Source: Streptomyces sp. NBC_00376
Lineage (GTDB): Bacteria > Actinomycetota > Actinomycetes > Streptomycetales > Streptomycetaceae
Assembly: GCF_036077095.1 (NCBI RefSeq)
Contig: NZ_CP107960.1
Coordinates: 7,192,001-7,256,000 of the forward strand
Length of the DNA stretch: 64,000 nucleotides
Reading direction: 5' to 3'
The position numbers were made by a program, and so were the translations under genes. A model generated the notes under the pieces. It was not told where the DNA came from. It was given only the letters and a program-made list of their open reading frames with translations, and ran no database searches. Shown here in pieces: positions 41,468 through 58,394 of this stretch. Each line of letters opens with the position of its first letter. Position 1 is the first letter of the stretch.

Positions 41468-41496
41468 AGAACGGCCGCTGTGGCAGGGTGGTTCAA
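41468..41496 (-). promoter_or_regulatory. SigL-type ECF promoter P1 (lipoprotein 40412-41302)
   Basis: On the minus strand TTGAACC (41496-41490), 16 bases after GAACC, then CGTTCT (41473-41468). Same geometry as seven other sites in the locus. Confidence 0.7.
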
Positions 41497-41530
41497 TTCC
41501 CGGGAAGTTCTTTTTCCGGGTCGCGAGCGG

Positions 41531-43108
41531 TCAGACCCGCCCGGTGCCCGCCCCCGCCAACGTCTGCGTGGGAACGACCACCCGCAGACCTAGTACGCCC
41601 AGGTCGACGCTGCCGTCGTTCTCCGCGTACCACCGCCAGTGCGCCCCCGGTACGTCGCCCACCGTCAGCACGATCCACCCGCCGCCCTCCGACCCGGTGA
41701 GGTCCGCGAGCGTTCGCGCCTCCTCGGCGGTCGGCGCGTCCTGGAGGACGACGAAGCCGGTGACCTCGCCCGTACGGGCGGCGCCACGCACCAGGCCGAC
41801 GCCCAGTTCCTCGGCGGAGTTGAGGATCTCCTCGGGGGCCTTGCCCGTCACCTCCGACACGGAGCGGACCCGGACCAGACCGTTGAGGCCGGGCAGGGCG
41901 CTCGCGCCCGGGTCCACCGACACCACCACCGTGCTCTGCCGCGGCAGTTCGAGCAGCCCGCGCACCAGCGCCGCCACGGTGTCCTGGGCGACGACGAGGT
42001 CACCGCTGACGCTCAGCGCGCCGTTGATCTGCCCGAGGTCCACCATGACCTGCGCGCCCCGCTCGCTCACCCCGATCCGGGCGAGGTGTGGCAGTGCGAG
42101 CGTCACTTCGGCCGCCGGATCGCCCTCGATGACGGAGGGCAGTCCGGTGCGCTCCCAGCGATTCGGTTCGAGCGCGGTCCACGGCGCGGGTGCCGTGTGT
42201 GCCCCCGACACCGACGCGAGCAGCTTCGTGGGTTCGGCGAGGACGCTGTAGACCCGTACCGGGCGCTCCGCCTCCGCCGCGTCGGCGGGGATCAGTTCGC
42301 GCAGCGCCTGCCGCACCACCGCCGGCGTACGGGTGTCCGCCGCGAGCCGCCGCGCGAGCGCGCCCCGCCGACGCCGCCGCAGCGCGAGCGCCAGGCCGCG
42401 CGGCAGCCGCGGCCGCAGCACCCGGGCGGCCCGCGCGATCCCGGAGCCGGTGGCGCGCACGGCCCGGCCGATCGGGCGCCGCGCGACGATCACCACGGTC
42501 AGTGCGGTGACGCCGGCAACACCCCCGATCAGCCAGGGCGACCCGAGCCGGTCGCCCAGCCCGGCGAACGGTCCCGAGCCCCGGCCGGCCGCGGCGCGGG
42601 GCGCGGGGGAGGCGCTCCGTGCGGGGGGCTTCGCCGCATCGGCGTTCTCCTCGGGCAGGACACCGAACTCCACGCCGGACCCGTCCGCGTCCTCCGGCAG
42701 GATCAGCGGGAAGCCCGGGGTCAGCTGGTCGGGACTCACGAAAGCCGAACCGTCCGGCAGCTGGCGCCCGCTGTTGAGGACCAGGATCTCCTCGAACCGG
42801 TCGCCGTCGCCGAGGGTGCGCTGTGCGATCCCGAACAGCGTCTCCTGCTCGCCGCCGTTCTCCTGCGCGGACCTGACCACGTAGTACTTCGTCACCTCAT
42901 CGGCCCGCAGCACCCGGAAGGGCTGCGCCTGCACGGCTGCCGGAACCGGTGCGGAGGCCGGAGCCCGTACCGGCCCCAGAGCCTGCGCGGGTGCGGGCAG
43001 CGCCAGCCAGGCGACGGCCACCAGACCGCACACCGCCGTCACCCGTGCCGTCGTGCGCCACGGCGCCGGCCGCCGCGCTTCGTTCGTCGTCCTCGGGGCG
43101 TCGCGCAT
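41531..43108 (-). CDS. LysM-like single-span membrane protein
   Basis: 525 residues. An N-terminal hydrophobic signal (TAVCGLVAVAWLALPAPAQA) is followed by a LysM-like external region (TLFGIAQRTLGDGDRFEEIL, LNSGRQLPDG, LTPGFPLILPED) and a Pro/Ala-rich linker. A transmembrane span SPWLIGGVAGVTALTVVIVA lies near residues 190-210, followed by an Arg-rich stop-transfer segment and a ~300-residue cytoplasmic part without a family I recognise. It may tie the secretion locus to the cell wall. Divergent from the giant gene; back-to-back SigL-type promoters lie in the 159-base gap. Confidence 0.78.
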   Translation of the reverse strand: MRDAPRTTNEARRPAPWRTTARVTAVCGLVAVAWLALPAPAQALGPVRAPASAPVPAAVQAQPFRVLRADEVTKYYVVRSAQENGGEQETLFGIAQRTLGDGDRFEEILVLNSGRQLPDGSAFVSPDQLTPGFPLILPEDADGSGVEFGVLPEENADAAKPPARSASPAPRAAAGRGSGPFAGLGDRLGSPWLIGGVAGVTALTVVIVARRPIGRAVRATGSGIARAARVLRPRLPRGLALALRRRRRGALARRLAADTRTPAVVRQALRELIPADAAEAERPVRVYSVLAEPTKLLASVSGAHTAPAPWTALEPNRWERTGLPSVIEGDPAAEVTLALPHLARIGVSERGAQVMVDLGQINGALSVSGDLVVAQDTVAALVRGLLELPRQSTVVVSVDPGASALPGLNGLVRVRSVSEVTGKAPEEILNSAEELGVGLVRGAARTGEVTGFVVLQDAPTAEEARTLADLTGSEGGGWIVLTVGDVPGAHWRWYAENDGSVDLGVLGLRVVVPTQTLAGAGTGRV

Positions 43109-43167
43109 CTTTCTCGTCCTCCTCCGTACGGGGCCTGGTGACGCGCACTGCTGATTGCGTCGGCCGT

Positions 43168-43196
43168 CACACGCGTGGAGCCCCGGGTCGGTTCAA
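43168..43196 (-). promoter_or_regulatory. SigL-type ECF promoter P2 (LysM-protein gene)
   Basis: Minus strand TTGAACC (43196-43190), 16-base gap after GAACC, CGTGTG (43173-43168). Predicted start ~55 bases before the ATG at 43108. Its -35 forms an inverted pair with that of P3 (GGTTCAACGAGCTGAACC). Confidence 0.8.
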
Positions 43197-43201
43197 CGAG
43201 C

Positions 43202-43229
43202 TGAACCGAAACGCCGACCACCCCGTTAG
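43202..43229 (+). promoter_or_regulatory. SigL-type ECF promoter P3 (giant repeat-protein gene)
   Basis: TGAACC (43202-43207), 16 bases, CGTTAG (43224-43229); predicted start ~32 bases before the ATG at 43268. Confidence 0.8.
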
Positions 43230-43267: not shown

Positions 43268-46200
43268 ATGGCGCGTCGGCATGCCACGGGCTGGGAGGTG
43301 CTCGGGTTCGGGGAGGACCCGACCCCCGGGAACCCGGAGGCGATCAGAACACTGGCCAAGACCTATCAGGAGCTGAGCGAAGGGGCGGGCGAGGCGGTCG
43401 AGCTGCTGCGCGACGACGGGGCGCTGCGCCGCGGCAAGGGCCAGGCGATGGACGCCCTGAAGACGCGCATCACCAAGGACCTGCCGGGGCTCCTGGAGAA
43501 GACCAGGGACTCCTTCCGTACCGCCGCGGGCGCCTACGACGAGTACGCGAACACCCTGACGAGCGCCCAGGACCTGCTGGACCGGGCCATCGACCAGGGC
43601 CAGGAGGTCGCCGCCGCCGCGAAGACGGAGGTCCCGGCCCTCGCGGCGGACGCCACCCCGGAGCAGGCCGAGACCCACCAGACGCAGCAGGGCGAGGTGA
43701 ACGCCGCGAAGGAGGCGCTGTCCGCCGCCGAGGAGCTCGGCCGCATGGCGCAGCGGATACGCGAGGAGGGGTCCGACAGGGCCACGATCGTCCTCGACGA
43801 CGCCGCCGAACAGGCCATCCCCGCAAGGGACTTCGTGAAGGCGTTCGGTGACTTCCTCGCGGACAACCCGCTGGTGGAGATCATCGCCGGTGTCATCATC
43901 GGCATCGTCGCCGTGTTCTTCCCGGTCGTGGGTCTCATCCTGGGCGCGATCCTGTTCGCGGTGTCGGTGATCCGGATGGTGTCGCAGGGCAAGATCGACG
44001 CCGGTGAGATCATCATCGGCCTGCTCACCCTCGTACCCGGTGGAGTGCTGCTCGGCGGGCTCGGGAAGATCGTCGGGGCGGCCGGCAAGCTGGCGAAGTT
44101 CGCGCCGTTCCTGGCCAAGGTGGGCAAGGGCGTCGGGACCGCTTCGGGGGCGGTCTCGGCGGCCCTGAAGAACTCGACGTTCGTCCGCAAGATCATCGAC
44201 CCGCTGTCCAAGGGACTCGTGGGTCTCAAGGCGTCCCCCGGTCTGGCCCTCGGCGCCAAGTTCGCGATCGACGTGACCACCGAGTTCTCCCTCGGCTTCC
44301 TGGCGAGCGGGATCACGGCGGTGATCGACGGGAAGAAGTTCGACGCGGCCTCGGCCGCCAAGGGCGCCGCGCTCGGTGCCGCCACGGCCGGTGCCTTCAC
44401 CCTGTTCGGCGGGACGAAGTTCGCCACCAGCATCAAGGACGCCTTCACCACCAAGGGCAAGTTCAAGAGCAACATCGACAAGGCGTTCTCCGTGAACAGC
44501 CTCGGTGTCGTCGACGGCAAGTTCAAACCCGGCAACGTCCTGTTCTCCGAGACCAAGGGCGCGCAGAAGACCGGCTTCCACGGCATCAACGGCACGACCA
44601 AGTCGGACCCCGCCACGGGCGAGGTCAAGACGAAGGTCACGACCCCGGACGGCGCGAAGACCGAGACGAAGATCACCCCGCCCGGTCCCAAGGCCGACCA
44701 GGTCGAGGCCCCCGACGACCTGCCCTTCGGAGTCCCGGGGCCCGAGACGTCGACGACCACCACGACACCGGACGGGTTCACGTCGAAGACCGCGAACGGC
44801 ACGAACACCATCAAGAGCCCGGACGGGGACGTCATCACCTCGAACGGCAACACGACGACGATCAGCACCCCGATTCAGGGCCCGACCACGAAGGAGCAGA
44901 TCCTCGGCGGGCTCGGAGGCGAGTTCGCGCCCGCGCAGTCGGAGAAGCCCGCGCTCTCCACGGAGCTGGGCCCGAACGGCGGCTTCACGACCTCGGGACC
45001 GTTCGGCGAGGTCTCCAAGGGGCCGGACGGCACCACGACGTTCAGCTCGCCCGGCGGTGACGGCGGTGGTCCCACGCCGGAGTTCACCGTGAACAACAAC
45101 ACGATCTCCACCCCGAACGGCCTCACCCTGACCGACAACGGCGGCTCCACGACGGTGGGTGGTGGCGGGCTCACCACGGACAACCAGAACGGTGTCAACT
45201 CGGTCTTCAACGGCCCCCCGGCGGGCCAGCCGGTGGTGACCCACAACCCCGCCGACGGCAACGTCGACATCAACTTCGGCAACACCACGCTCAACGGCAA
45301 CACGGGGAACCCCGGGGGTGGATTCGCCCTGCCGGACGGCACGCAGGCCAACGTCGGCAACAACGGCGACGTGAGCGTCGTCAACGGAGACGGCGGCGGC
45401 CAGAACGTCAACCTGCCCCCGGCCAACGCGGGCGGCCCGGTCACCTTCACCGACACCAACGTCAGCACCAGCATCCCTCCGGCCGGCGGCGCCACCATCG
45501 CCACGCCGGGCGGCCCCGCCACCACGCTCGACCACACCGGGTTCACGGTGAACACCGGCGGCCCCACCCCCGACACGGTGCAGTTCAACGGGCCGGGGAA
45601 CTCGCTCGACGTGACGCCGCCCGGCGGTCAGCCGCAGGTCTCGGTCGGCCCGGACGGCTCCATCACCACCGGCAACATCAACACCGACGGGGGTGGCGGC
45701 GGTACGGCCACCGGCGGCGGGGGGAACGTGGCGTTCTCGCCGACCGACATCAAGTTCAGCACGCCCGACGGCGGGACGATCGCCGTCAACCCGCAGGGCC
45801 AGTTCGACCTGAACCCCTCCGGCGCCCAGCCGCCGGTCACCGTCAACCCGAACGGGGACATCGCGGTGGGCCCGTCCGGCGCGGCCCCGGTCACCTTCAA
45901 CGGCCCCGACGGCACCGCCGTCACCACCAAGCCCGGCGGCGGCCTCGACGTGACACCGCCCGGCGGTCACCCACAGGTCTCGGCCGGCCCGGACGGCGGC
46001 GTCTCCGTCAACGGCATCACCACGGACGGCAACGGCGGCGGCACGGCCACCGGCCCCGGCGGCCAGGTCGACTTCTCGCCGCTCGACATCAAGTTCAGCG
46101 CCCCGGACGGCACGACGTTCACCATCAACCCCAACGGCAAGTTCCACGTCGACGGGATCAGCCACGGCGCGGACGGCGTCACCATCGGCGGCTCGACCAC

Positions 46201-49200
46201 GGTCGGCAAAGACGGCTCGGCGAGCATCGCCCACGGTGACCAGCAGATCAACGTCGGCGCCGACGGCACCATCACGGCCAACGACGCGCAGGGCAACCCG
46301 GTCCCGCCGGCCGTGCCGCAGCCGACCCCCGGAAATCCGGTGAACGCGGGCAACACCACCATCTCCGTGGACAACGGCGGCGGCCACTCGGTCACCGTCC
46401 ACGGCCAGAACGGCACCACGGTGACGGTCGGCGGCAACGGCACCACGACCGTCAACCATGGCCCGATCCAGGCGAGCCACGGCCCGAACGGCATCAGCGG
46501 CAGCGTGGGCACCGGCCATCCGATCCAGGCCAGCCAGGGCCCGAACGGCGTCACGACCGTCAGTCAGAACGGTACGTCGGTGAGTACGGGCGGAAACGGC
46601 CCGACCACGGTCGGTCCGCAGGGCGGGCCCGCCTCGGTCACCGTAAAACCGCCCACGGGCCAGGACCCCGCCCAGGTCACCACCGCCGATGGCAGTACCA
46701 CCAGCGTCCACGGCGACGGCACCGTCACCAAGTCGGCGCCCGCGGGAGCCGGCAGCCAGACGGTCAACACGGGCGGTCCTGGCAACACCACGGTGACGGT
46801 CGGCGACAACGGCACCACGACCGTCAGCAACGGCCCGATCCAGGCGAGTCACGGCCCGGACGGCATCAGCGGCAGCGTGGGCACCGTCAACCCGGTCCAG
46901 GTCGGCCAGGGCCCGGACGGCGTGACGACCGTCAGTCAGAACGGTACGTCGGTGAGTACGGGCGGAAACGGCCCGACCACGGTCGGTCCGCAGGGCGGGC
47001 CCGCCTCGGTCACCGTCAACCCGGCCGACGGAGCCAACCCGACGCAGGTCACCACCTCAGGCGGCAGCAACACCACCCTGACGGGGAACGGCGCCCAGAC
47101 GGACGTCAACGGCACCAACACCGCGAACAGCACGATCAACAACGACGGCACCATCAGCAACAACGCGCCGGCGGGCCCCAACAGCACGGTCACCACCGGA
47201 CCGAACGGCACCACCGCCGCCGACAACAACGGCAACTTCGGCGTGGACAACACCGGCACCGTCACCAACGGCCCGGTCACCATCACCGCCAACACCGACG
47301 CCGCCAACAACCCCGTGGCCACCTTCACCGACACCGGAGCCGGCGGTGCGCAGGCCGATGTCGGCACCAACGGCGTCAGCACCCAGGGCGTCGACACCAC
47401 GGTCGACCCGGGCGGCGATGTCACCGTCACCCACCACCAGACACCCGGCGGTCCGCCCACGACCGTCAACTCGGGCGCGGACGGCACGATCACCACACAG
47501 ACCCCCGACGGGGCCGAGGCGAAGGTGCCGCCACGCCCGAACCCCGCAGGCGGCGGACCTGCGCCCGCACCGGCCCCCAGCACGATCACCAACAACAACG
47601 GCGCCACCCTCTCGACGGACGGGCAGACCACCGCATTCACCAACGACGGGTTCACGACCACCATCGGCAACGACGGCACCGGCCCGGCCACCACGACACT
47701 CCACCACGACTCCGGCGTCAGCCACACCGTCGACAACAACGGCCAGGCCACGGTCAACAACTCGCCGAGCGGCGCCGGCATCACCGGCACCAACACCCAG
47801 GTGACGGTGAACACCCCGCAGCAGGAGGGCTGGGGCCTGTTCGGCTCACCGGAGATGACGGGCGGTCAGAACACCCTGTCCAACGGCCCGGACGGCCCCA
47901 CGATCACCACGCAGGGTGCCGACCCGGTCCACGAGCCCGGCAGCACCGTCGTGCACGGCCCGAACGCGGGCGGACCCGAGGGCGAGTTCTCCGTCACGTA
48001 CGGACCGGCCACCGGCACCTTCGCGCCCGGCGGCGTCACCGGTCTCGGCCCCTCCGGCACCCACGTCGACCCGGCCACCAACCTTCCCGTCGACACGGCG
48101 GGCAACCCCATCGGCAACAACCCCGGCGACACCACCATCAGCACCGTCACCGGCGACGGCAACAGCGGCATCACCGTGCCCACGCCCGGGGGCGGCCCCG
48201 TCGTGCACCACGACGGCTTCTACGGCGGCAACACCGGCGTCGACACCAACAACAGCACCCTCGGCAAGAGCCCCGGCGACGTGGAGAACGCCGGTACGCC
48301 GGGCCAGAAGTCCGACATCCTGGACGGCCCGCACAACCCCTTCAACCGCGACCCCGCGCCGGGCCCCGAGACCTTTACGGTGGGCGGCAACGGCGGCGGG
48401 CCCTCCGTGGACGTCCCGGTCGGCGGCAAGGGTGACTCCACCGTCCACAACGGCCCGTTCGACGTGAAGGCCAACGGCGACGGCTCCTTCGACGTGTCCG
48501 TGTCCGGTAGCAACCAGCCCGGTGACAAGGTCACCGTCGGACCGGACGGCACCCTCACCGGGCCCGGCGTGGTTCCGGAAGCGCAACCCGGAGCAGGACA
48601 GGAGGGGCCCGCCAGGCCCCCGCAGGTCACGTTCAGTAATAACACCACCGTTACCGGCGGACCGGGCGCGGCGCCCGTCGTCACCCCCGACGGCGGCGGC
48701 GCCACCACCACCTTCGCCAACGGCGCCGCCACCACCACCGACCAGGCGGGCAACGTCACCATCACGCAGAACCCCGACGGCAGCGCCACGTTCAGTAACA
48801 CCGCGGGCGGCGAGAACACCACGTTCACCGTCACCAAGGACGGCGTGGAAGGCACCGTCACCACGACTGACAACAACGGCAACCAGACCACGTTCGACGT
48901 CTTGGTCAACAACAACGGCTCCGTGCAGGTGAAGGACGCCAACGGCAAGACCCTCACCGAGGTCGACGCGAACGGCTCCTTCAACGAGCAGCACACCCCG
49001 ATCCACGACTACCACGCTTACGCGGGTGGCCCCACATCCGTAACCGAGCTCCACGAATACGGCTACGAGGCCCTCACCAGCATCCTCAAGGGCGCCGTCG
49101 GCCAAGCCGTCAGCGTCGGCTACGAGGTGGGCGCCAACGGCGCCGACGCGCAGACCACCCTGGAGAACGCGGGCATCAAACTCGGCTACGGCGTAGGCAA

Positions 49201-49360
49201 TTCCCTGGCCGGCAAGAAGGTCGAGAACGACCACGGATTCAAGACCAAGGGACCCGAGGTACCCCTTGCCTCGCTTCCCACGAAAACCATCGGAGCCGTC
49301 AACTCCAACCAGGACACCGAATTGGCGAATCCACCGGAAGAAGCCCCCATCAAGGTCTGA
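43268..49360 (+). CDS. Giant WXG100/LXG-headed protein with NG-rich repeat region
   Basis: 2,030 residues. The first ~190 residues are helical and coiled (NPEAIRTLAKTYQELSEGAG...), like the heads of type VII-secreted LXG/polymorphic-toxin proteins. At ~200-265 lie hydrophobic segments (LVEIIAGVIIGIVAVFFPVVGL and a following one), with further Ala/Gly-rich hydrophobic stretches to ~370. From ~450 to ~1,900 the chain is composed of short beta-strand/NG-turn repeats rich in Gly, Asn, Thr, Asp, Pro and poor in charge, suggesting a long beta-solenoid. The last ~130 residues are less repetitive (HDYHAYAGGP...GYEALTSILKGAVGQ) and could be the effector. The ATG at 43268 is 7 bases after GGAGGA; a TTG at 43262 is too close. 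Secretion by the neighbouring EccC-like ATPase is inferred. Confidence 0.8.
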   Translation: MARRHATGWEVLGFGEDPTPGNPEAIRTLAKTYQELSEGAGEAVELLRDDGALRRGKGQAMDALKTRITKDLPGLLEKTRDSFRTAAGAYDEYANTLTSAQDLLDRAIDQGQEVAAAAKTEVPALAADATPEQAETHQTQQGEVNAAKEALSAAEELGRMAQRIREEGSDRATIVLDDAAEQAIPARDFVKAFGDFLADNPLVEIIAGVIIGIVAVFFPVVGLILGAILFAVSVIRMVSQGKIDAGEIIIGLLTLVPGGVLLGGLGKIVGAAGKLAKFAPFLAKVGKGVGTASGAVSAALKNSTFVRKIIDPLSKGLVGLKASPGLALGAKFAIDVTTEFSLGFLASGITAVIDGKKFDAASAAKGAALGAATAGAFTLFGGTKFATSIKDAFTTKGKFKSNIDKAFSVNSLGVVDGKFKPGNVLFSETKGAQKTGFHGINGTTKSDPATGEVKTKVTTPDGAKTETKITPPGPKADQVEAPDDLPFGVPGPETSTTTTTPDGFTSKTANGTNTIKSPDGDVITSNGNTTTISTPIQGPTTKEQILGGLGGEFAPAQSEKPALSTELGPNGGFTTSGPFGEVSKGPDGTTTFSSPGGDGGGPTPEFTVNNNTISTPNGLTLTDNGGSTTVGGGGLTTDNQNGVNSVFNGPPAGQPVVTHNPADGNVDINFGNTTLNGNTGNPGGGFALPDGTQANVGNNGDVSVVNGDGGGQNVNLPPANAGGPVTFTDTNVSTSIPPAGGATIATPGGPATTLDHTGFTVNTGGPTPDTVQFNGPGNSLDVTPPGGQPQVSVGPDGSITTGNINTDGGGGGTATGGGGNVAFSPTDIKFSTPDGGTIAVNPQGQFDLNPSGAQPPVTVNPNGDIAVGPSGAAPVTFNGPDGTAVTTKPGGGLDVTPPGGHPQVSAGPDGGVSVNGITTDGNGGGTATGPGGQVDFSPLDIKFSAPDGTTFTINPNGKFHVDGISHGADGVTIGGSTTVGKDGSASIAHGDQQINVGADGTITANDAQGNPVPPAVPQPTPGNPVNAGNTTISVDNGGGHSVTVHGQNGTTVTVGGNGTTTVNHGPIQASHGPNGISGSVGTGHPIQASQGPNGVTTVSQNGTSVSTGGNGPTTVGPQGGPASVTVKPPTGQDPAQVTTADGSTTSVHGDGTVTKSAPAGAGSQTVNTGGPGNTTVTVGDNGTTTVSNGPIQASHGPDGISGSVGTVNPVQVGQGPDGVTTVSQNGTSVSTGGNGPTTVGPQGGPASVTVNPADGANPTQVTTSGGSNTTLTGNGAQTDVNGTNTANSTINNDGTISNNAPAGPNSTVTTGPNGTTAADNNGNFGVDNTGTVTNGPVTITANTDAANNPVATFTDTGAGGAQADVGTNGVSTQGVDTTVDPGGDVTVTHHQTPGGPPTTVNSGADGTITTQTPDGAEAKVPPRPNPAGGGPAPAPAPSTITNNNGATLSTDGQTTAFTNDGFTTTIGNDGTGPATTTLHHDSGVSHTVDNNGQATVNNSPSGAGITGTNTQVTVNTPQQEGWGLFGSPEMTGGQNTLSNGPDGPTITTQGADPVHEPGSTVVHGPNAGGPEGEFSVTYGPATGTFAPGGVTGLGPSGTHVDPATNLPVDTAGNPIGNNPGDTTISTVTGDGNSGITVPTPGGGPVVHHDGFYGGNTGVDTNNSTLGKSPGDVENAGTPGQKSDILDGPHNPFNRDPAPGPETFTVGGNGGGPSVDVPVGGKGDSTVHNGPFDVKANGDGSFDVSVSGSNQPGDKVTVGPDGTLTGPGVVPEAQPGAGQEGPARPPQVTFSNNTTVTGGPGAAPVVTPDGGGATTTFANGAATTTDQAGNVTITQNPDGSATFSNTAGGENTTFTVTKDGVEGTVTTTDNNGNQTTFDVLVNNNGSVQVKDANGKTLTEVDANGSFNEQHTPIHDYHAYAGGPTSVTELHEYGYEALTSILKGAVGQAVSVGYEVGANGADAQTTLENAGIKLGYGVGNSLAGKKVENDHGFKTKGPEVPLASLPTKTIGAVNSNQDTELANPPEEAPIKV
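46553..47016 (+). repeat. Long direct repeats within the giant gene
   Basis: A 92-base exact repeat (46553-46644 and 46925-47016) lies within a larger imperfect unit of 372 bases (124 codons). Weaker related units lie on both sides, so the region expands or contracts by recombination. Codon identity over 92 bases indicates a recent event. Confidence 0.9.
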
Positions 49361-49385
49361 ACCGAATGACCGCACCCGTCGTGTG
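49358..49385 (+). promoter_or_regulatory. SigL-type ECF promoter P4 (WXG100 gene)
   Basis: TGAACC (49358-49363) starts on the stop codon of the giant gene; 16 bases later CGTGTG (49380-49385). Gives the small secreted protein its own strong transcript, start near 49392. Confidence 0.75.
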
Positions 49386-49458: not shown

Positions 49459-49755
49459 ATGGCCGATTACATCGTGAACGACGAGAAGACCGGCGCCGCC
49501 GCCACGCAGACCATGAACGAGTACGAGATCGCGGTCGCCCAGCTCAACAAGATCAAGGCCGACCTGGACGCGCTCACCGCCGACGGCTACAACACCCCGT
49601 CGGCGAGGAACGACTTCCAGCCCTTCGTGCAGGAGTACACGGACAACTACGGCAAGGTCACCGAAGGTCTCACGGGCATCTCCGAGTACATCAAGAAGTA
49701 CGGCGAGGGCATGACCCAGTTCGACTCCGAGATGGGTTCCAGCCTCCGCAAGTGA
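49459..49755 (+). CDS. WXG100-like small protein (EsxA/ESAT-6 type) with atypical turn
   Basis: 98 residues predicted to form a helical hairpin: helix TMNEYEIAVAQLNKIKADLDAL, turn DGYNTPSA, helix ARNDFQPFVQEYTDNYGKV. The Trp-x-Gly turn of the family is absent and is replaced by GYNTPS. The C-terminus FDSEMGSSLRK matches that of the protein at 55135. ATG at 49459 follows AAGGGAG. It lies between the giant protein and the EccC-like ATPase, the usual place for a type VII substrate, and has its own promoter. Confidence 0.82.
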   Translation: MADYIVNDEKTGAAATQTMNEYEIAVAQLNKIKADLDALTADGYNTPSARNDFQPFVQEYTDNYGKVTEGLTGISEYIKKYGEGMTQFDSEMGSSLRK

Positions 49756-49862: not shown

Positions 49863-52800
49863 ATGCGTCTGACCGTCACCGCCGTCGACCCGGAGCAGGG
49901 TCAGACCGCGGACATCATGATCGAGACCGACCCCGAGGCCCCCGCGGGCGAACTCGCCGAGCAACTGCACCGGCGGCTGCGCGGCGGCACACCGAAAGCA
50001 CCGCCCGTTCTGTACCACGGGGCCACCCCGCTCCCCGCCGACCAGCCGATGGCCGCCGCCGCCCTGCGCTCCGGCAGCCTGCTGTCCCTGGACGCTCCCG
50101 CGCCCGAGGCGGGCCCGGAGCCGGACGGCGTCGTGGAACTGCGCGGCGTCGGCGGCGCCGACGCGGGAGTGGTGTTCCGGCTGCCGCCCGGCGACTACGA
50201 GATCGGCTCCGCCGCGTCCTGCCGCATCCAGCTCCGCGCCGAAGGGCTCGCGAAGACCGCGGCGCGCCTGAAGGTGCACGCCGACGCCACCGCGACCGTA
50301 CGTTCCGTCGACCAGGACGGCGTCACCCGGGACGGCACCGGGGCGCGGGACTGGACCCCATGGCCGCTCGGCGGCGTCCTCACCATCGGCCCGGCCCTGC
50401 TCGAACTGGCCACGCCCTCCGTGCCCGACGCCGCCCTCCAGCCCTCCGACGACGGCGTGGGGCTCGACTACAACCGGCCGCCCCGGCTGCTGCCCCCGCC
50501 CGTCAACAACCGCTTCCAGCTCCCCGTGCCGCCCGGAAAACCCATCCGCAACAAGCTCCAGCTCGTGATGATCTTCGCACCGCTGATGATGGCCGGCGTC
50601 TCGTTCGTCATCTTCAACAACCCCAGGTTCCTGGTCTTCGGTGTCCTCTCCCCAGTCGTCGCCCTCATCTCCCAGTTCTCCAACAAGCGCCGGGGCAAGG
50701 AGAGTTACGAGGACCAGCTCAAGGAGTACGAGGAGAAGAAGGCCGCACTGGAACAGGACGTGGACGAGGCGGTGCTCGCCGAACAGCACGCCCGGCGCCT
50801 CGCCGCCCCGGACCCGGCGTCGGCCCTCCTGATCGCCACCGGCCCGCGTCAGCGGCTCTGGGAGCGCCGCTGGCGCGACAGCGACTTCCTGCTGATGCGG
50901 CTCGGCGTCGCCGACCGTCCCGCCTACGTGGAGCTCCAGGACCCCGCCGAGCCGGAACACCGCCGCAGGGTCGACCGCACCACGCACGCCGTGCCCGTGA
51001 CCGTGCCGCTGCGCTCCTGCGGCGTCATGGGCGTCGCCGGCGGCGCCACCGCCGAGCCGCTGGTGCGCTGGCTGATCGCCCAGGCCGCCGTCCTGCACAG
51101 CCCCTCCGACCTGCGGATCTGCGTACTGTCCGGCACCGGCGGCGCGGACCGCTGGTCCTGGGTGCACTGGCTGCCGCACTGCGCGCCCCTCGGCGAGGAC
51201 ACCATCTCCCTGGTCGGCGCGAGCGCCGAGTCCGTGGGCCGCCGCATCGCCGAACTCACCGCCGTGGTCGCCGCCCGGCAGGCGGCCGGCGACCGGGCAC
51301 CGCGCGGCGGCGCCGCGGGCGAGCCCGACGTCCTGGTCGTCCTCGACGGCGCCCGGAGACTGCGCTCCCTGCCCGGCGTCATCCAGATCCTCCGCGACGG
51401 ACCGGCCGTCGGCGTGTACGCGCTGTGCGTGGACGACGAGGCCCGGCTCCTGCCCGAGGAGTGCCGCGCCGTGGCCGTGGCCGGGCCGAAGTGGCTGCGC
51501 GCCGAGCAGGACAGCGCCGACCCCGTCGACGAGGTCCGCATGGACGCGCCGACCCGGTCCTGGTGCGTGGGCGTGGCCCGCGCGCTCGCGCCGATCCGCG
51601 ACGTGGGCGACGACGCCGACGAGAACCTGCTGCCCGCCTCCGCCCGGCTCCTGGACGTACTCGGTCTCGAACCGCCCACCCCCGACGCCGTCGCCGCGCG
51701 ATGGGTGATCGCCGCCCGCAGCACCCGCGCCGTGCTCGGCGAGGGCGTGGATGGTCCGTTCGCCGTCGACCTGGCCGCCGACGGGCCGCACGGCCTGATC
51801 GCGGGCACCACCGGATCCGGCAAGTCCGAACTGCTCCAGTCCCTCGTGGCGAGCCTCGCCGTCGCCAACCGGCCGGACGAGCTGAACTTCGTCCTCGTCG
51901 ACTACAAGGGCGGCAGCGCCTTCGCCGAGTGCGAGGACCTGCCGCACACCGTCGGCATGGTCACCGACCTGGACACCCACCTCGTGGAGCGGGCCCTGGT
52001 GTCCCTCGGCGCCGAACTGAAGCGACGCGAGCACATCCTCGCGGAGGCCGGGGCCAAGGACATCGACGACTACACCGACAAACGCACCCGCCATCCCGAA
52101 CTCGCCCCCATGGCCCGGCTCGTCCTCGTCATCGACGAGTTCGCGTCGATGGTGCGCGAACTCCCCGACTTCGTCTCCGGACTCGTCAACATCGCCCAGC
52201 GGGGCCGCTCCCTCGGCATCCACCTGATCCTCGCCACCCAGCGGCCCTCCGGCGCGGTCACCGCCGACATCCGCGCCAACACCAACCTGCGGATCGCGCT
52301 GCGCACCACCGACACCGGAGAGAGCCGCGACATCATCGACGCCCCCGACTCAGGGCAGCTCTCGCCCCGCACTCCCGGCCGCGCCCACGCCAGGCTCGGC
52401 CACGCGGCGCTGCTGCCGTTCCAGACCGGTCGGATCGGCGGCCGCCGCCTCGACGCCTCGAACACGGACGAGGACCGCCCGGCGCCGGTGCTCACCGAAC
52501 TCCACTGGGAGGCCCTCGGCGCCCCGATACCGAGGCCGGAGGTGCAGGAGGACACCTTCCAGCCGGTCACCGACCTGTCGGTCCTGGTCGAGGCGGTACG
52601 CGACGCGGCCACCCAGCTCTCCGTACCGCCCGCCCGGCGCCCCTGGCTGCCCCCGTTGCCCGGCGTCCTCACTCTCGCCGACCTGCCCGCGCGGCCCGAG
52701 GCGGCCGAGGACGGGCGGCTCACCCCGGTGGCGTACGGCCTCGTGGACGTGCCCACCGAGCAGGCGCAGCGTCAACTCGCCTTCGATCTCGACGAGATGG

Positions 52801-54269
52801 GCCATCTGTACATCATCGGCTCGCCGCGCAGCGGCCGCTCGCAGGCGCTACGGACCCTCGCCGCCGCCCTCACCGGCGCGCACCGCTGCGCCGACGTCCA
52901 CCTGTACGGACTCGACTGCGGCAACGGCGCCCTCCAGGCCCTCGGCGGACTCCCGCACTGCGGGGCCGTGGTGGACCGGGGCCAGGTCGAGCGGGTGACC
53001 CGCCTCCTGAACCGCCTGGTCGCCGAGGTCGGGCGGCGCCGTGAACTTCTCGGCAGGCGGGGCGTCGCCGACCTCACCGAGCTGCGCCGCGTCCTGCCCG
53101 AGACGGAGCGGCCCCCGCACATCCTGCTGCTCGTCGACCGGTTCGAGGCGTTCGAGCGGGACTTCGCCAACTACGACCAGGGCAGCCTGATGGACGCCAT
53201 GACCCTGCTGATGCGCGAGGGCGCGAGCGTCGGCCTGCACCTGGTCATGACCGGCGACCGCATCCTCGGTCAGAACCGGTTCTCCTCCACCACCGAGGAC
53301 AAGCTGGTCCTGCGCCTCAACGACCGCACCGACTACTCCATGGTGGGCCTCCACTCCCGCGACGTCCCCGAGGATCTCCCGGCCGGTCGCGGTGTCCTCG
53401 CCAAGGACACCAACAGCGCTCAGATCGCATTGATCCCGGGCGGCGACGGCGGCGACGGCAGCGCCCGCACCGACGCCACCGGCGCGGGCCAGGCCCTGGC
53501 ACTCGGCGTACTCGCCGAACGGGTCGGGGAACGCGACGCCGAGGTGCCCACCGAGCGCAGGCCGTTCCGCGTGGACGTCCTGCCAGACGAGCTGGACTTC
53601 GCGGACGCCCTCGCCCGCAGGCCGCACACCGTCTCCCCGCTGTGGGCGATGGTCGGCGTCGGAGGCGACGAACTCGCCGCCATCGGCACCGACTTGTCGC
53701 AGGTGCCGTCCTTCGTGGTCGCCGGCCCGCCGAGGTCGGGCCGCAGCACGGTGCTGCTCACCATGGCGAAGTCGCTGACCGCGGCCGGCACGAAGATCGT
53801 GGCGATCGCGCCGCGCAACTCGCCGCTGCGCCACCTCGCCGGACAGCCCGGCGTCGTGGAGGTCTTCACCGACGCCGACGTCGCGGTCGCCGACTTCCGC
53901 GCCGCACTCGGCAAGGTGGACAGCCCCGCCGGAGCCATCCTCGTCGACGATGCCGAGATGATGATCAACTCCGAGCTGGACACCGACTTCGTCGCGCTCG
54001 CCCGCGGCAGCGCCGGGGACGGCTGGGGCCTGATCATGGCCGGCAACAACGAGGCGCTGCTCGGCGGCATCGGCGGCTGGCAGGCCGCCGTACGCCGCAA
54101 CCGCTGCGGCGCCCTGCTCGCGCCCCGGCTGATGGGCGACGGCGAACTCGTCGGCGCCCGTCTGCCACGCGGCCTGATGGGACAGGACAGCGAACCCGGC
54201 CGCGCCCACCTGCAGCTCGGCGACGGCCGCTTCACCACGGTCCGCGTGCCCGCGACGACGGTGGACTGA
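49863..54269 (+). CDS. FHA-FtsK/SpoIIIE-type secretion ATPase (EccC/EssC-like)
   Basis: 1,468 residues. It starts with a ubiquitin-like stretch (~1-80), then an FHA-like domain ~95-185 (GDYEIGSAASCRIQL). Two transmembrane segments lie at ~230-272 (QLVMIFAPLMMAGVSFVIF, FLVFGVLSPVVALISQF). Three ATPase domains follow. D1 has Walker A GTTGSGKSE near 647 and Walker B LVLVIDEFA near 755. D2 has GSPRSGRS near 985 and D3 GPPRSGRS near 1287; in both the Walker Lys is Arg, so D2/D3 are likely regulatory or substrate-binding. FHA at the N-terminus is the EssC arrangement. It is the motor of a type VII-like system, but no EccB, EccD, EccE or mycosin gene is in the window. ATG after AAGGAG. Confidence 0.92.
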   Translation: MRLTVTAVDPEQGQTADIMIETDPEAPAGELAEQLHRRLRGGTPKAPPVLYHGATPLPADQPMAAAALRSGSLLSLDAPAPEAGPEPDGVVELRGVGGADAGVVFRLPPGDYEIGSAASCRIQLRAEGLAKTAARLKVHADATATVRSVDQDGVTRDGTGARDWTPWPLGGVLTIGPALLELATPSVPDAALQPSDDGVGLDYNRPPRLLPPPVNNRFQLPVPPGKPIRNKLQLVMIFAPLMMAGVSFVIFNNPRFLVFGVLSPVVALISQFSNKRRGKESYEDQLKEYEEKKAALEQDVDEAVLAEQHARRLAAPDPASALLIATGPRQRLWERRWRDSDFLLMRLGVADRPAYVELQDPAEPEHRRRVDRTTHAVPVTVPLRSCGVMGVAGGATAEPLVRWLIAQAAVLHSPSDLRICVLSGTGGADRWSWVHWLPHCAPLGEDTISLVGASAESVGRRIAELTAVVAARQAAGDRAPRGGAAGEPDVLVVLDGARRLRSLPGVIQILRDGPAVGVYALCVDDEARLLPEECRAVAVAGPKWLRAEQDSADPVDEVRMDAPTRSWCVGVARALAPIRDVGDDADENLLPASARLLDVLGLEPPTPDAVAARWVIAARSTRAVLGEGVDGPFAVDLAADGPHGLIAGTTGSGKSELLQSLVASLAVANRPDELNFVLVDYKGGSAFAECEDLPHTVGMVTDLDTHLVERALVSLGAELKRREHILAEAGAKDIDDYTDKRTRHPELAPMARLVLVIDEFASMVRELPDFVSGLVNIAQRGRSLGIHLILATQRPSGAVTADIRANTNLRIALRTTDTGESRDIIDAPDSGQLSPRTPGRAHARLGHAALLPFQTGRIGGRRLDASNTDEDRPAPVLTELHWEALGAPIPRPEVQEDTFQPVTDLSVLVEAVRDAATQLSVPPARRPWLPPLPGVLTLADLPARPEAAEDGRLTPVAYGLVDVPTEQAQRQLAFDLDEMGHLYIIGSPRSGRSQALRTLAAALTGAHRCADVHLYGLDCGNGALQALGGLPHCGAVVDRGQVERVTRLLNRLVAEVGRRRELLGRRGVADLTELRRVLPETERPPHILLLVDRFEAFERDFANYDQGSLMDAMTLLMREGASVGLHLVMTGDRILGQNRFSSTTEDKLVLRLNDRTDYSMVGLHSRDVPEDLPAGRGVLAKDTNSAQIALIPGGDGGDGSARTDATGAGQALALGVLAERVGERDAEVPTERRPFRVDVLPDELDFADALARRPHTVSPLWAMVGVGGDELAAIGTDLSQVPSFVVAGPPRSGRSTVLLTMAKSLTAAGTKIVAIAPRNSPLRHLAGQPGVVEVFTDADVAVADFRAALGKVDSPAGAILVDDAEMMINSELDTDFVALARGSAGDGWGLIMAGNNEALLGGIGGWQAAVRRNRCGALLAPRLMGDGELVGARLPRGLMGQDSEPGRAHLQLGDGRFTTVRVPATTVD

Positions 54270-54430: not shown

Positions 54431-55057
54431 TCAGGTGGTCGCCGCGCCGACGGCCACCGGCTCCTTGTCGCCGAAGGCGAACGTCGACGTGATGGCGTCG
54501 AAGAGGTCGTTCAGCGGCTCGGCGAGCGGGATGTTCGGGCTGAAGCAGGTGATGATCAGGACCCGCTCGCCACCGGGGACCGGCACGAACGTGTGCGTCA
54601 CCACCATCTTGTACGAGACACCGTCGGCGATCTCCGTCTCCTCGATGCCGGCCATCCGGCCGACCGGACCGACGCCCGGCAGCGTCGCCGTCGTGAGGGT
54701 CCGGGTGGTGTTCTCGCGGCGGCGGCCCCCGGTGGCCGAGAACTGCTCGGCGATGCCCTTGGCGGAGAAGTCCTCACCGGGCGGCGGCGTCACGCTGAAC
54801 ACCATGAGCCCGGCCATCAGCAGGCCGTCCTCGTACATGGCGGTGGTGCCCGCCGCATAGACGGCGCCGCGCCTGCGGGCGCCCTCCATGATGCGCCGCG
54901 CGCTGCGGAACGTGTGGTTGATGGCGTCCCGGGTCTCCTTCTGCGGGGCGTGCCGCAGCATCTCGGCACGGCGCTCGGCGAGCGTGTCGCCGTGCAGGTC
55001 GTACTCCGTCCAGTTCTCCGGGATGGCGATCCCGAAGGTGTGCGAACCAGTGGTCAT
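54431..55057 (-). CDS. Hypothetical type VII-locus protein, possibly PsbP/MOG1-like fold
   Basis: 208 residues from the ATG at 55057; longer in-frame starts upstream read through a GC-rich gap and are unlikely. No signal peptide or membrane span. The C-terminal part (TLPGVGPVGRMAGIEETEI, YKMVVTHTFVPVPGGERVLIITCFSPN, LNDLFDAITSTFAF) resembles the two-layer sheet proteins of the PsbP/MOG1/LpqN type, but this is only an impression. It sits downstream of the small WXG100-like gene and may be its chaperone or a substrate adaptor, like EspG in mycobacteria. Confidence 0.6.
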   Translation of the reverse strand: MTTGSHTFGIAIPENWTEYDLHGDTLAERRAEMLRHAPQKETRDAINHTFRSARRIMEGARRRGAVYAAGTTAMYEDGLLMAGLMVFSVTPPPGEDFSAKGIAEQFSATGGRRRENTTRTLTTATLPGVGPVGRMAGIEETEIADGVSYKMVVTHTFVPVPGGERVLIITCFSPNIPLAEPLNDLFDAITSTFAFGDKEPVAVGAATT

Positions 55058-55075
55058 GGGACCGTGCTCCTCAGT

Positions 55076-55134: not shown

Positions 55135-55467
55135 CTAGGACGGCCGGGTGCCACTCCCGGCGGGTGTCGCGTCGCCGCCACCGCCCTGCCCGCCGCTTTC
55201 CTTCAGCGAAGAGCCCATCTTGGTGTCGAAGTCGTCGAAGGCCTTCACGATGGCCTCGCAGGCGTCCTTGAGGTCCTTGCTGTTCCGCTTGACCTGCACG
55301 CGCCCGTCCTTCCACTGCTCGTCGAAGTTGGTGCCGGGGCGCACCAGTGGCGGGCCGACGTCCTCGGGGGCGTAGCCCGAGGGCCGGGTGTCGATGAGAT
55401 CCATCACCCGGCCCAGGAGTTCACCGAGACGTTGCACCTCGTCTCCCGGCATCTCGATCTCGGCCAA
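55135..55467 (-). CDS. WXG100-like protein 2
   Basis: 110 residues. Two helices flank a Pro-rich middle (YAPEDVGPPLVRPGTNFDEQW); a W-x-x-G (WKDG) occurs near the middle instead of W-x-G. The second helix ends FDTKMGSSLKE, matching the C-terminus of the 98-residue protein at 49459, followed by a Gly/Ser/Pro tail. Start at the ATG with SigL-type promoter P5 ~50 bases upstream. Likely partner or co-substrate of the EccC-like ATPase. Confidence 0.7.
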   Translation of the reverse strand: MAEIEMPGDEVQRLGELLGRVMDLIDTRPSGYAPEDVGPPLVRPGTNFDEQWKDGRVQVKRNSKDLKDACEAIVKAFDDFDTKMGSSLKESGGQGGGGDATPAGSGTRPS

Positions 55468-55517: not shown

Positions 55518-55546
55518 GGAACGACGGCGGACGCGGGACGGTTCAA
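55518..55546 (-). promoter_or_regulatory. SigL-type ECF promoter P5 (WXG100-like 2)
   Basis: Minus strand TTGAACC (55546-55540), 16 bases, CGTTCC (55523-55518). Confidence 0.78.
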
Positions 55547-55593: not shown

Positions 55594-56064
55594 TCACGCG
55601 GCCTTGCGGACGAGCTTGCCGTCGGGTGCCACGGCGAACCACTCGCCGTCCAGGCCCTGCCCGTTGACGTCACCGGGCGCCATGTCACCGACGTAGTAGT
55701 ACAGCGGCCAGTCCCCGTACGTGACGTGGACGGCACCCCCGGACTGCTTCGCCTCGCGCAGCAGCGACTTCCTGACGCCCCGGCCCGCGGTGGCGGGTAC
55801 GGGGCTGGTCAGCGCGGGCCATACGGCGATGCACTCCGCGTCGCAGTTGCTCGCGGCGTCCTTGTCCTTGGTGAAGGCGTACAGGGTGCGGCCCTTGCCG
55901 TCGACCAGGATGGAGCCGAGCCCGACGTCCGCCACGGTGACCTCGGTGCCGGGCGCGGCCTTGACCGGCCTCCTGCCGTCGTCGGTGTCGCCGTCGCTCC
56001 CGGCCCCGCAGGCGACAAGTCCCAGGGCCAGCGGGATCGCGAAAAGAGCCTTGCGTGCACGCAT
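55594..56064 (-). CDS. Small SCO0930-type lipoprotein, one secreted repeat
   Basis: 156 residues from the ATG at 56064. Lipobox LGLVACG, then a single secreted repeat: GRTLYAFTKDKD, NCDAECIAVWPAL with the C-x3-C pair, YGDWPLYYYVGD and GLDGEWFAVAPDGK. It corresponds to one unit of the two-repeat lipoprotein at 40412, so related lipoproteins bracket the secretion genes. Promoter P6 lies ~50 bases upstream and diverges from P7. Confidence 0.85.
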   Translation of the reverse strand: MRARKALFAIPLALGLVACGAGSDGDTDDGRRPVKAAPGTEVTVADVGLGSILVDGKGRTLYAFTKDKDAASNCDAECIAVWPALTSPVPATAGRGVRKSLLREAKQSGGAVHVTYGDWPLYYYVGDMAPGDVNGQGLDGEWFAVAPDGKLVRKAA

Positions 56065-56118: not shown

Positions 56119-56147
56119 CACACGTGCTCCCTGCGCATCGGGTTCAG
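56119..56147 (-). promoter_or_regulatory. SigL-type ECF promoter P6 (small lipoprotein)
   Basis: Minus strand CTGAACC (56147-56141), 16 bases, CGTGTG (56124-56119). Confidence 0.75.
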
Positions 56148-56203: not shown

Positions 56204-56232
56204 TTGAACCGCTCGGGCCGTTCGTCCGTTCG
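56204..56232 (+). promoter_or_regulatory. SigL-type ECF promoter P7 (CHRD gene)
   Basis: TTGAACC (56204-56210), 16 bases, CGTTCG (56227-56232); predicted start ~46 bases before the ATG at 56284. Confidence 0.8.
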
Positions 56233-56283: not shown

Positions 56284-57222
56284 ATGCGCAGGCTCACTGT
56301 TGCGGCGGCCGCCGCCGTGCTCCTCGCCGGTCTCACCGGTTTCGCCGGTACGAGTCCGGCGCTGGCCGAGGACGGCCCCGACGCCGGGGGCTCCCGTGGC
56401 ACCGGGGTCTCAGCGGCCACCGCCGAAGCGGCGCAGGCACCGGCCGTCTCCCTGATCGCCCGGCTCACCGGCGACCAGGACGGGCCCACCGCGGGCGACC
56501 AGGACGGCAAGGCCGTCGTGCTCGTCAAGGTCAAGGGCGACCGCGTCACCTTCGCCCTCACCTGGAACGGCATCGGCAGGCCGACGCGCGGCCACCTCCA
56601 CCGGGGCCGGCCCGGCAGCGACGGCGGGGTGAAGGCCGCGCTGTTCGGCACGGCCATGCCCGCCTCGGTCAACTCCGCCGCCGGGCAGACCTCGATGTCC
56701 TCCGCCGCGCTCGCCCGACAACTGCGCACCGACCCCGGCGGCTTCTACATCGACCTGCACTCCGAGGAGTTCCCTGGTGGCGCGGTGCGCGGCCGGCTCC
56801 GGCTCCTGGAGAAACCGGTGAACCCGCTCAGCATCATCAGGGGCGGCAAGCTGCGCGCGCTCGCGGACGGCGGCCAGGAGGTCCCGGCCGACGACCCCGG
56901 CAAGGCGGGCGACCCGGACGGGCACAGCACCACGTTCCTGCACCCGAGGACGGACCGCGTCGACTACTCCATGGCCTGGGTGAACATCGGGGCGCCGCTG
57001 GCCGGACACATCCACGAGGGGGTGCTCGGCGAGAACGGCGACGTACGGCTCCCGCTGTTCGTCACTCCCGTACCGAAGAACGTCTTCGCGATCTCCGGCA
57101 GCGTCAGCGTCCCCGACGCCGAGGTCATCGCACGCCTCAAGGGGAGCCCGACCGGCTTCTACTCCAACCTGCACACCCGGGAGTTCCCCGACGGCGCCGT
57201 ACGAGGGCAGTTGTTCCGCTGA
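56284..57222 (+). CDS. Secreted two-CHRD-domain protein
   Basis: 312 residues. A signal peptide ends near SPALAE. Two CHRD (chordin-like) domains follow. The first has HLHRGRPGSDG and LHSEEFPGGAVRGRL, the second GHIHEGVLGENG and LHTREFPDGAVRGQLF; the paired His/Asp and EFP-GGAVRG motifs are diagnostic. These secreted domains are of unknown biochemical role in bacteria. Under SigL-type promoter P7, divergent from the lipoprotein, so co-regulated with the secretion genes. Confidence 0.88.
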   Translation: MRRLTVAAAAAVLLAGLTGFAGTSPALAEDGPDAGGSRGTGVSAATAEAAQAPAVSLIARLTGDQDGPTAGDQDGKAVVLVKVKGDRVTFALTWNGIGRPTRGHLHRGRPGSDGGVKAALFGTAMPASVNSAAGQTSMSSAALARQLRTDPGGFYIDLHSEEFPGGAVRGRLRLLEKPVNPLSIIRGGKLRALADGGQEVPADDPGKAGDPDGHSTTFLHPRTDRVDYSMAWVNIGAPLAGHIHEGVLGENGDVRLPLFVTPVPKNVFAISGSVSVPDAEVIARLKGSPTGFYSNLHTREFPDGAVRGQLFR

Positions 57223-57266
57223 CGTTCACCGGCAAGGGGGTGACGGAGGTTTCGCGGGCGGCCTGT

Positions 57267-57284
57267 GGGCAATCTTGATTGCCC
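57267..57284. promoter_or_regulatory. Palindrome upstream of the DUF1996 gene
   Basis: GGGCAATC and GATTGCCC around TT; arms of 8 bases. It lies 26 bases before the GTG start; either an operator or a weak terminator of the CHRD transcript. Confidence 0.45.
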
Positions 57285-57309
57285 CGGCCCCTGGTGACAC
57301 CCTGCTTCC

Positions 57310-58308
57310 GTGCGGATCAAGCTGCCCTTCCCCAACTCCCCTCTGTTCTGGGGGATTCTGCCCGTGACGCTCGGGCTGATCGTGCTCCTGGGCGTCATGA
57401 CGTTCGGCGCCGACAGGGCCGCCACGGTGTCCGGCGCACCCGCCGACGACAAGTACGTGGAGATCGGGACCGTTGTGCCGGCCCGGGCGCCCGCGGCCGG
57501 ACCCGACGCGTCCACCGGCTCGTACACCGTCGACTGCGGCCGCAACGAACAGGGCCACTACAACATGGACAACGTCGTGACCTCCCCGGGCGTCGTGAAC
57601 GGCGCCCACCACACCCACGACTACGTCGGCAATCTCTCCACCGACGCCCTGTCCACCGACCGGAGTCTGGCCGCCGCCGACACCACCTGCGCGGGCGGCG
57701 ACCGGTCCACGTACTACTGGCCGGTGCTGCGCCGCCTCGACCGCACCGGCGATGCCCACAAGGCAGGCGTCGGCGCCCACGGCAACACCGGTGAGGTCGT
57801 CACCGCCTCCTCGGTGCGGGTGGAGTTCCGCGGCAACCCGGTCAGCTCGGTCGTCGGCATGCCCCGCTTCCTGCGGCTGGTCACGGGCGACCCGGTCGCG
57901 GCCACCACGGACAGCGGGAACGCCCGTGCGCAGTGGGGCTGTTCCGGCTACCCGGACCGGTTCACCCGGAACTACGCACGCTGCCCGCAGGGCAGCGGAC
58001 CGACCCGCACCTTGGACTTCCCGAGCTGCTGGAACGGCCTCGCCACCGACAGCCCCGACCACCGTACGCACGCACAGTTCCCCGCCGCCGACGGCACCTG
58101 CCCGCGGGCCACGTTCCCCGTGCCGCAACTGCGCGTCACCCTCACCTATGAACTCCCGGAGGGCACGCCGTTCGCCGTCGACTCCTTCCCGGAGCAACTG
58201 CGCGATCCGATCACCGACCACGCGATGTTCGTGAACGTGATGACCGGGGATCGCATGGCGGAGCTGGTGCGCTGCATCAACGAGGACCGGCAGTGCAAGG
58301 CCGGGTGA
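57310..58308 (+). CDS. DUF1996 domain-containing exported protein
   Basis: 332 residues from a GTG. An N-terminal hydrophobic helix (LFWGILPVTLGLIVLLGVMTF) acts as signal or anchor. The DUF1996 domain follows, with DCGRNEQGHYNMDNVV, the HHTHDYVGN histidine cluster, STYYWPVL, and late Cys-containing CWNGLATDSPDHRTHAQFP and CP-motifs. Such proteins are extracellular and of unknown function; their His cluster suggests metal binding. No SigL-type site is seen directly upstream, so read-through from P7 is likely. Confidence 0.85.
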   Translation: MRIKLPFPNSPLFWGILPVTLGLIVLLGVMTFGADRAATVSGAPADDKYVEIGTVVPARAPAAGPDASTGSYTVDCGRNEQGHYNMDNVVTSPGVVNGAHHTHDYVGNLSTDALSTDRSLAAADTTCAGGDRSTYYWPVLRRLDRTGDAHKAGVGAHGNTGEVVTASSVRVEFRGNPVSSVVGMPRFLRLVTGDPVAATTDSGNARAQWGCSGYPDRFTRNYARCPQGSGPTRTLDFPSCWNGLATDSPDHRTHAQFPAADGTCPRATFPVPQLRVTLTYELPEGTPFAVDSFPEQLRDPITDHAMFVNVMTGDRMAELVRCINEDRQCKAG

Positions 58309-58365
58309 CCAGGACCCCTCGCATGCCCCCGGCCGACCTGTGATTCAGCTCACATCCGTCCGGGA

Positions 58366-58394
58366 TTGAACCGGCCCGGCCCGCCGTCCGTGTT
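58366..58394 (+). promoter_or_regulatory. SigL-type ECF promoter P8 (sigma factor gene itself)
   Basis: TTGAACC (58366-58372), 16 bases, CGTGTT (58389-58394), ~30 bases before the ATG: expected positive autoregulation. Confidence 0.8.

Follow-up and report, generated by a model that had tools for sequence, protein, structure and literature searches.

The window analyzed here is a stretch of 64,000 nucleotides from the genome of Streptomyces sp. NBC_00376 (NZ_CP107960.1, positions 7,192,001 to 7,256,000); positions given below are those of the window unless another record is named. It contains a type VII secretion-like locus, which extends from the gene for an SCO0930-family lipoprotein (40412) to the gene for an anti-sigma factor (59715). 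The sequence TGAACC-N16-CGTK (K being G or T) occurs eight times in this locus, at the heads of eight transcription units, and the genes internal to operons have no site. Our results suggest that these sites are very probably the promoters of an autoregulated extracytoplasmic function (ECF) sigma factor of the SigL type, encoded within the locus, which would control the whole of it.

The first two units lie on the reverse strand: a CGTT site (41470-41495) heads the lipoprotein gene (40412-41302; 296 amino acids; NF040526, 383.9 bits against a cut-off of 275), and a CGTG site (43170-43195) heads the gene for a membrane protein of 525 amino acids with two hydrophobic segments (41531-43108), which is LysM-like according to a preliminary description of this DNA and by eye, with no Pfam match. 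The -35 box of the latter site stands back to back, with 6 bp between, with that of a divergent forward CGTT site (43202-43227), which heads the gene for a giant Gly/Thr/Asn-rich repeat protein of 2,030 amino acids (43268-49360). The stop codon TGA of this gene forms the first bases of the -35 box of a forward CGTG site (49358-49383) that heads wxgA, encoding a WXG100-like protein of 98 amino acids (49459-49755), and the gene for an EssC/EccC-like ATPase with FtsK/SpoIIIE domains (49863-54269). On the reverse strand, a CGTT site (55520-55545) heads wxgB, encoding a WXG100-like small protein of 110 amino acids (55135-55467), together with the gene for a 208-amino-acid protein (54431-55057), and a CGTG site (56121-56146) heads the gene for a Lipoprotein_15 lipoprotein of 156 amino acids (55594-56064; PF03640, 81.8 bits). 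A forward CGTT site (56205-56230) heads the genes for a CHRD-domain secreted protein (56284-57222; PF07452, 147.2 bits) and a DUF1996 protein (57310-58308; PF09362, 76.5 bits), the latter without a site of its own. The last site (58367-58392, forward, CGTG) is the candidate autoregulatory promoter of the sigma factor gene (58430-59002), which is followed by the anti-sigma gene (58999-59715), also on the forward strand.

All eight sites had been listed in the preliminary description and were found at the same places and on the same strands. The exact 16-bp spacer claimed there was reproduced as well: a pattern scan of the window with spacers of 15 to 17 bp gave eight matches, all N16, and none with a spacer of 15 or 17. 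The -10 box is CGTG in four sites and CGTT in four, and lies 37 to 167 nucleotides from the likely start codon (for the sigma factor, the in-frame ATG at 58430). In 100 dinucleotide shuffles of the window, the mean number of matches was 0.64 and the maximum was 4, with none of the 100 reaching 8. The genome-wide search suggested earlier yielded 44 N16 copies in 10.04 Mb, compared to 7 for a reversed control pattern; eight of the 44 fall inside the 16.9-kb span of the locus, where the density of the remaining 36 would predict 0.06 (Poisson P[>=8] = 4e-15). A mechanical and rough rule based on the GC content of third codon positions (GC3), identical for locus and outside sites, put all eight locus sites in a promoter position, as had been described, versus 6 of the 36 outside sites (17 being inside open reading frames and 13 elsewhere; Fisher p = 1.7e-5). 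Equal frequency at other positions, which the preliminary description had named as grounds for rejecting its proposal, was not observed. This rule missed wxgB at its site and took the next open reading frame, used an internal start at the Lipoprotein_15 site and missed a short anti-sigma-like open reading frame behind the outside site L004.

The genome-wide count was rejected as evidence: each of six genomes that lack a SigL-like match at E 1e-30 has between 16 and 43 motif sites, much like other genomes, and because of these similar totals the signal resides in the cluster and its placement rather than in the total number. The bulk of the 36 outside sites is probably background, and none is claimed as a member of the regulon. 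Six of them are promoter-like by the rule (L009, L011, L015, L016, L027 and L029); by eye, L016 is associated with a small secreted-protein-like open reading frame and L027 with an acetyl-CoA-synthetase-like one. Four of the outside sites (L001, L002, L003 and L105) share one and the same 26-bp sequence and may belong to a repeated mobile element. Upstream of the locus, positions 19928-40376 resemble by eye a gene cluster for nonribosomal peptide synthesis, with multidomain open reading frames of large size, a transporter, a methyltransferase and a thioesterase-like open reading frame, and the window scan found no TGAACC-N15-17-CGTK in this stretch.

The assignment of the local sigma factor to the SigL type, made in the preliminary description, is borne out by several comparisons. 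Its best solved relative is SigL of Mycobacterium tuberculosis (137 bits), the next sigma factor scoring 57 bits. The NF007227 (PRK09645) model, which we take to represent the SigL group, gives 222.9 bits against a curated cut-off of 202. The protein has regions 2 and 4 only (PF04542 and PF04545) and, at 190 amino acids, is of the size expected for a SigL-type ECF sigma factor (about 180 to 190). Its gene is adjoined by that of a membrane anti-sigma factor with one hydrophobic segment and an N-terminal zinc-binding zf-HC2 domain (PF13490, 30.4 bits, cut-off 22.2). A likeness of the motif to the mycobacterial SigL promoter had also been noted. The TGAACC half corresponds to the -35 element of M. 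tuberculosis SigL promoters. For the other half, one report gives the strand CGTGTCAG of an M. tuberculosis SigL promoter scaffold, in which the -10 region contains CGTG (PMC6372665).

A genome scan recovered ten related loci, nine in Streptomyces (ATPase identity of 77-96%) and one in Nonomuraea (42%). Among the nine Streptomyces loci (lineage I), which amount to about four independent lineages because L031, L032, L033, L034 and L037 are near relatives, as are L035 and L036, an N16 site precedes the CHRD, sigma factor, Lipoprotein_15 and wxgA genes in 9 of 9 loci each, the giant gene in 7 of 7, the LysM-like gene in 6 of 7 (the seventh having N17), the SCO0930 gene in 6 of 7 and wxgB in 6 of 9. 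No N16 site was found in these loci before the genes that do not head a unit, namely those for the ATPase (0/9), the DUF1996 protein (0/8), the 208-amino-acid protein (0/9) and the anti-sigma factor (0/9), and a reversed -35 control produced one match at gene heads. Box identities of 1.0 follow from the selection of exact matches, a bias from which these gene-head counts are free. When spacers of 10 to 23 bp were allowed, 61 of 70 upstream TGAACC-CGTK pairs were N16, although the identity of the spacer bases to those of the window is 0.44-0.54 in L035, L038 and L039. For the most part, each gene keeps the site in front of it, even where the gene order has been rearranged. In L039, for example, the sigma and anti-sigma genes lie between wxgB and the Lipoprotein_15 gene and every unit retains its own site. 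In L038, wxgB abuts or overlaps the Lipoprotein_15 gene and the wxgB site is absent. In the Nonomuraea stretch, a single TGAACC-N16-CGTA is present and CGTK sites are absent. S. atratus NBC_00041 carries the complete locus together with eight N16 sites (L128, NZ_CP108284.1, 13856-34598) close to one end of a linear plasmid of 898 kb, whereas the locus of the window genome is on an 8.9-Mb contig.

The motif before the sigma factor gene extends beyond the secretion locus. Among 199 genomes of the genus, including that of the window, the sigma factor is at least 89% identical in 4 and 69-77% identical in 18. TGAACC-N16-CGTG precedes the sigma gene in 16 of the 18 loci of this latter, nearest clade, three of which have an additional site before an SCO0930-like gene. 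No secretion genes (ATPase, giant, LysM-like, WXG100-like or 208-amino-acid protein) were seen around these 18 sigma genes, except for one weak ATPase-like match in L084, in stretches of up to 20 kb with about 10 kb on either side (two being only 10-11 kb). The motif was absent within 300 bp of eight more distant SigL-like loci (L063-L070, the best eight of a longer list of matches) and of the three paralogs in the same genome (L089-L091). In the sigma factor tree, support is weak (70/95) for the fork joining lineage I to the nearest clade. Lineage I is not recovered there as one clade, and a long-branch paralog lies beside it.

Searches with the 208-amino-acid protein detected a second lineage of the locus (lineage II), with the same core genes and an ATPase that is 53-54% identical where complete. 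This protein was matched in 85 of 392 genomes, and sites were examined in 12 of these, 4 of lineage I and 8 of lineage II, the remaining 73 having weaker matches only; homologs are also present in S. clavuligerus and others. The motif of lineage II is TGAACC-N17-CGTGT. Of nine giant genes, seven have an N17 site in front of them, and in 7 of 11 loci an N17 site (with CGTA in L131) points at an SCO0930-like lipoprotein gene; the gene-head table shows 3 of 10 for these lipoprotein heads, an undercount because matches starting beyond query residue 120 were dropped. When both strands were scanned for spacers of 6 to 30 bp, the DNA of the lineage I loci contained 61 N16 versus 1 N17 and that of the lineage II loci 18 N17 versus 1 N16 (L131 excluded and L147 included), with no other spacer above 9 or 4, respectively; both sets of counts are inflated by near relatives, and plasmids H6, H7 and H8 look alike. 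Restriction to CGTGT gave 30 N16 to 1 N17 in lineage I and 17 N17 to 0 N16 in lineage II.

Of the 11 regions of lineage II, 5 (L129, L134/L140, L135, L137/L141 and L139) encode a sigma factor that belongs to a separate SigL-type clade (support 100/100). Carriers of this lineage include large linear Streptomyces plasmids. Six plasmid records match at least 95% of the 208-amino-acid protein at 37-39% identity, and five of these also carry a sigma factor that matches the lineage II query at 54-61%; of the five, the tree includes that of NBC_01340 only. In the sixth, NBC_01455, the ATPase gene is truncated and neither the giant protein nor wxgA has a match. The lineage II sigma query is not specific to these plasmids: it matches 16 plasmid records in all, among them three S. 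atratus plasmids of lineage I and eight records that lack a match to the 208-amino-acid protein. In NBC_00055, the sigma gene is about 58 kb from the locus and an N17-CGTGT site lies 473 bp upstream of it, where a BTAD regulator gene ends. The gene ahead of lineage II sigma genes encodes a large regulator, which is annotated as BTAD in L143 (1650-5516) and looks similar by eye in L129 (5030-8711) and L140 (3646-7257), and the annotation of L143 shows no anti-sigma gene next to the sigma gene. This arrangement suggests that the lineage II sigma factor is controlled in a different way. We propose tentatively, and with somewhat less than even confidence, that two lineages of SigL-type sigma factors, both of which have become coupled to this type VII-like locus, have diverged in spacer preference (16 versus 17 bp) with their promoters shifting in concert, resulting in portable and mutually insulated cassettes on chromosomes and large linear plasmids.

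We consider it very probable, from sequence comparison, that the eight sites serve the local sigma factor. The preliminary description had proposed a single regulon of lipoproteins, LysM protein, giant protein, WXG100-like proteins, CHRD protein and sigma factor; sites at every unit head and their conservation across species are what such a regulon would predict, and a promoter driving the sigma gene itself, also proposed there, is indicated by the retention of this site throughout the local clade and in most of the nearest one. There are, nevertheless, a number of observations that weigh against this reading. The wxgB site is absent in L035, L036 and L038, and fusion of wxgB to the Lipoprotein_15 gene cannot account for the loss in the first two because about 80 bp separate these genes there; in L038, the site before the SCO0930 gene departs from the motif at one position. 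In lineage II, most unit heads other than those of the giant and lipoprotein genes lack a site, L136 and L138 have secretion genes without any site, and the sigma gene of NBC_01450 has no site within 5 kb, the single N17 site of its secretion locus being before the gene in the wxgB position. Four of the eight sites in the window have T at -11. One study states that the specificity of M. tuberculosis SigL is strongest for G at this position, that G is present in three of the four characterized M. tuberculosis promoters and that this preference is set by Asp60 (PMC6372665). The equivalent residue is Asn in the local sigma factor and in those of the nearest clade, and Ser or Ala in the aligned lineage II sigma factors. 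This residue does not appear to sort CGTG from CGTT sites or to explain the site pattern, and the idea that Asn causes the mixture was set aside, because Asn is shared with the nearest clade and the lineage II sigma factors with Ser or Ala have CGTGT sites.

Other observations are those expected if the sites were ECF promoters read by a SigL-like paralog or by another ECF sigma factor, such as SigU, with the local sigma factor being one reader among several. The genome encodes three further SigL-like sigma factors (42, 50 and 52% identical), which could share the motif. Beside one of these (L090 2067-2268, near C1 854890), TGAACC-N16-CGTG precedes a 66-amino-acid orphan anti-sigma-like open reading frame, which is convergent with the paralog gene; the 26-mer has a near-identical copy in genome G075. 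The lipoprotein SCO0930 of S. coelicolor is also listed as part of the SigU regulon (PMC6295645). We regard this alternative as unlikely: in the local clade and most of the nearest one, the sigma gene itself has the motif in front of it, whereas the eight distant and three paralogous loci examined do not, and in lineage II the spacer changes along with the sigma clade. Still less probable is that a DNA-binding repressor or activator uses TGAACC as its operator, with CGT incidental. The divergent pair at 43190-43207 does form an inverted repeat, GGTTCA-N6-TGAACC, between the boxes at 43195 (reverse) and 43202 (forward), and a gap of 6 or 7 bp is kept in L032, L033, L035, L036, L037 and L038. 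However, most sites are single rather than paired, the two divergent boxes of L039 are 19 bp apart, and the distance to CGTK is held at 16 bp although the spacer bases diverge. Chance clustering in a GC-rich genome, for which the 36 further copies and the totals in genomes without a close SigL-like match might be cited, is already refuted by the density and placement of the locus sites and by their retention at orthologous gene heads in divergent species.

The description of the locus as type VII-like draws on the membrane FtsK/SpoIIIE ATPase (PF01580, 207.6 bits), an EccC/EssC-like protein with two hydrophobic segments and an N terminus that is FHA-like (Yop-YscD_cpl, 27 bits against a cut-off of 33.2). 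The WXG100 model PF06013 gives 22.5 bits for wxgA, below its cut-off of 27.3, and is carried by 7 of 14 wxgA homologs; wxgB has no Pfam match and was named from its size, position and sequence. The giant protein has an N-terminal T7SS_signal match (PF21725, 27.3 bits, cut-off 27) and hydrophobic segments at about residues 205-223 and 248-266, and may be a secreted substrate. EccB was not found in the locus, and the two EccB family matches of the genome (C1:7385169 and C1:2393208) are outside the window. A general Pfam scan of the locus genes, rather than model searches aimed at these components, named none of EccD, EccE, MycP, EsaA, EssA and EssB. Structure prediction and comparison give the 208-amino-acid protein a Mog1/PsbP-like fold that resembles EagR chaperones (SciW) and DcrB, and it could serve the hydrophobic part of the giant protein. 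The EagR chaperones such as SciW belong, however, to a different secretion system (type VI); the 208-amino-acid protein is about 10% identical to them, and its fold is equally close to PsbP, LpqN and Mog1.

If the local sigma factor reads these sites, as we favor, a simple scheme of control can be envisaged. At rest, the co-transcribed membrane anti-sigma factor with its zf-HC2 zinc domain would hold the sigma factor. An envelope or thiol-redox signal sensed by the anti-sigma factor would free it, and the freed sigma factor would transcribe its own operon, thereby amplifying itself, and the seven other units. The outcome would be a coordinated deployment of the type VII-like apparatus, its giant substrate and the accompanying cell-surface proteins. 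By analogy, release is most likely governed by the envelope or thiol-redox state; we infer the redox step because the anti-sigma factor has a zinc domain and RslA of M. tuberculosis is redox-sensitive (PMC2877774).

The SigL-RslA pair of M. tuberculosis is similar in several respects. The targets of this SigL are said to include secreted or membrane proteins, as here, to judge from the title of a 2005 study by Hahn. The two sigma factors are of the same family, and one report describes a -10 element starting with CGTG and a SigL-dependent promoter on the sigL gene itself (PMC6372665); another describes RslA as a membrane anti-sigma factor with a zinc-binding N-terminal domain (PMC2877774). The present system differs in its predicted targets, a type VII-like locus and SCO0930, CHRD and DUF1996 proteins, and in having CGTT at half of the sites. 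SCO0942 of S. coelicolor and S. lividans is also named SigL, and its deletion strain is among those with increased tolerance to so-called sulfate-oxidizing stress (PMC6295645). A sigL gene, although it is unclear which, is placed under SigB control in another paper (PMC9205884). In the literature searched, which leaves most subscription journals outside it, we found no description of SigL-type control of a Streptomyces type VII locus, of this locus or of the spacer shift. Our results provide a concrete and testable regulon for an uncharacterized Streptomyces type VII-like locus without EccB and name its would-be switch, and the coordinated shift from 16 to 17 bp offers a natural experiment on how ECF sigma factors measure the distance between -35 and -10 elements. 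The kind of control itself is already known, because the mycobacterial ECF sigma factor SigM activates the type VII locus ESX-4 (PMC10117145), as the SigL-type factor would do for the locus described here. SigM is, however, a different sigma factor acting on an ESX locus, whereas the present locus lacks EccB and contains the sigma gene itself. The proposed regulon would add an example of ECF-controlled type VII secretion to the one known from SigM in mycobacteria.

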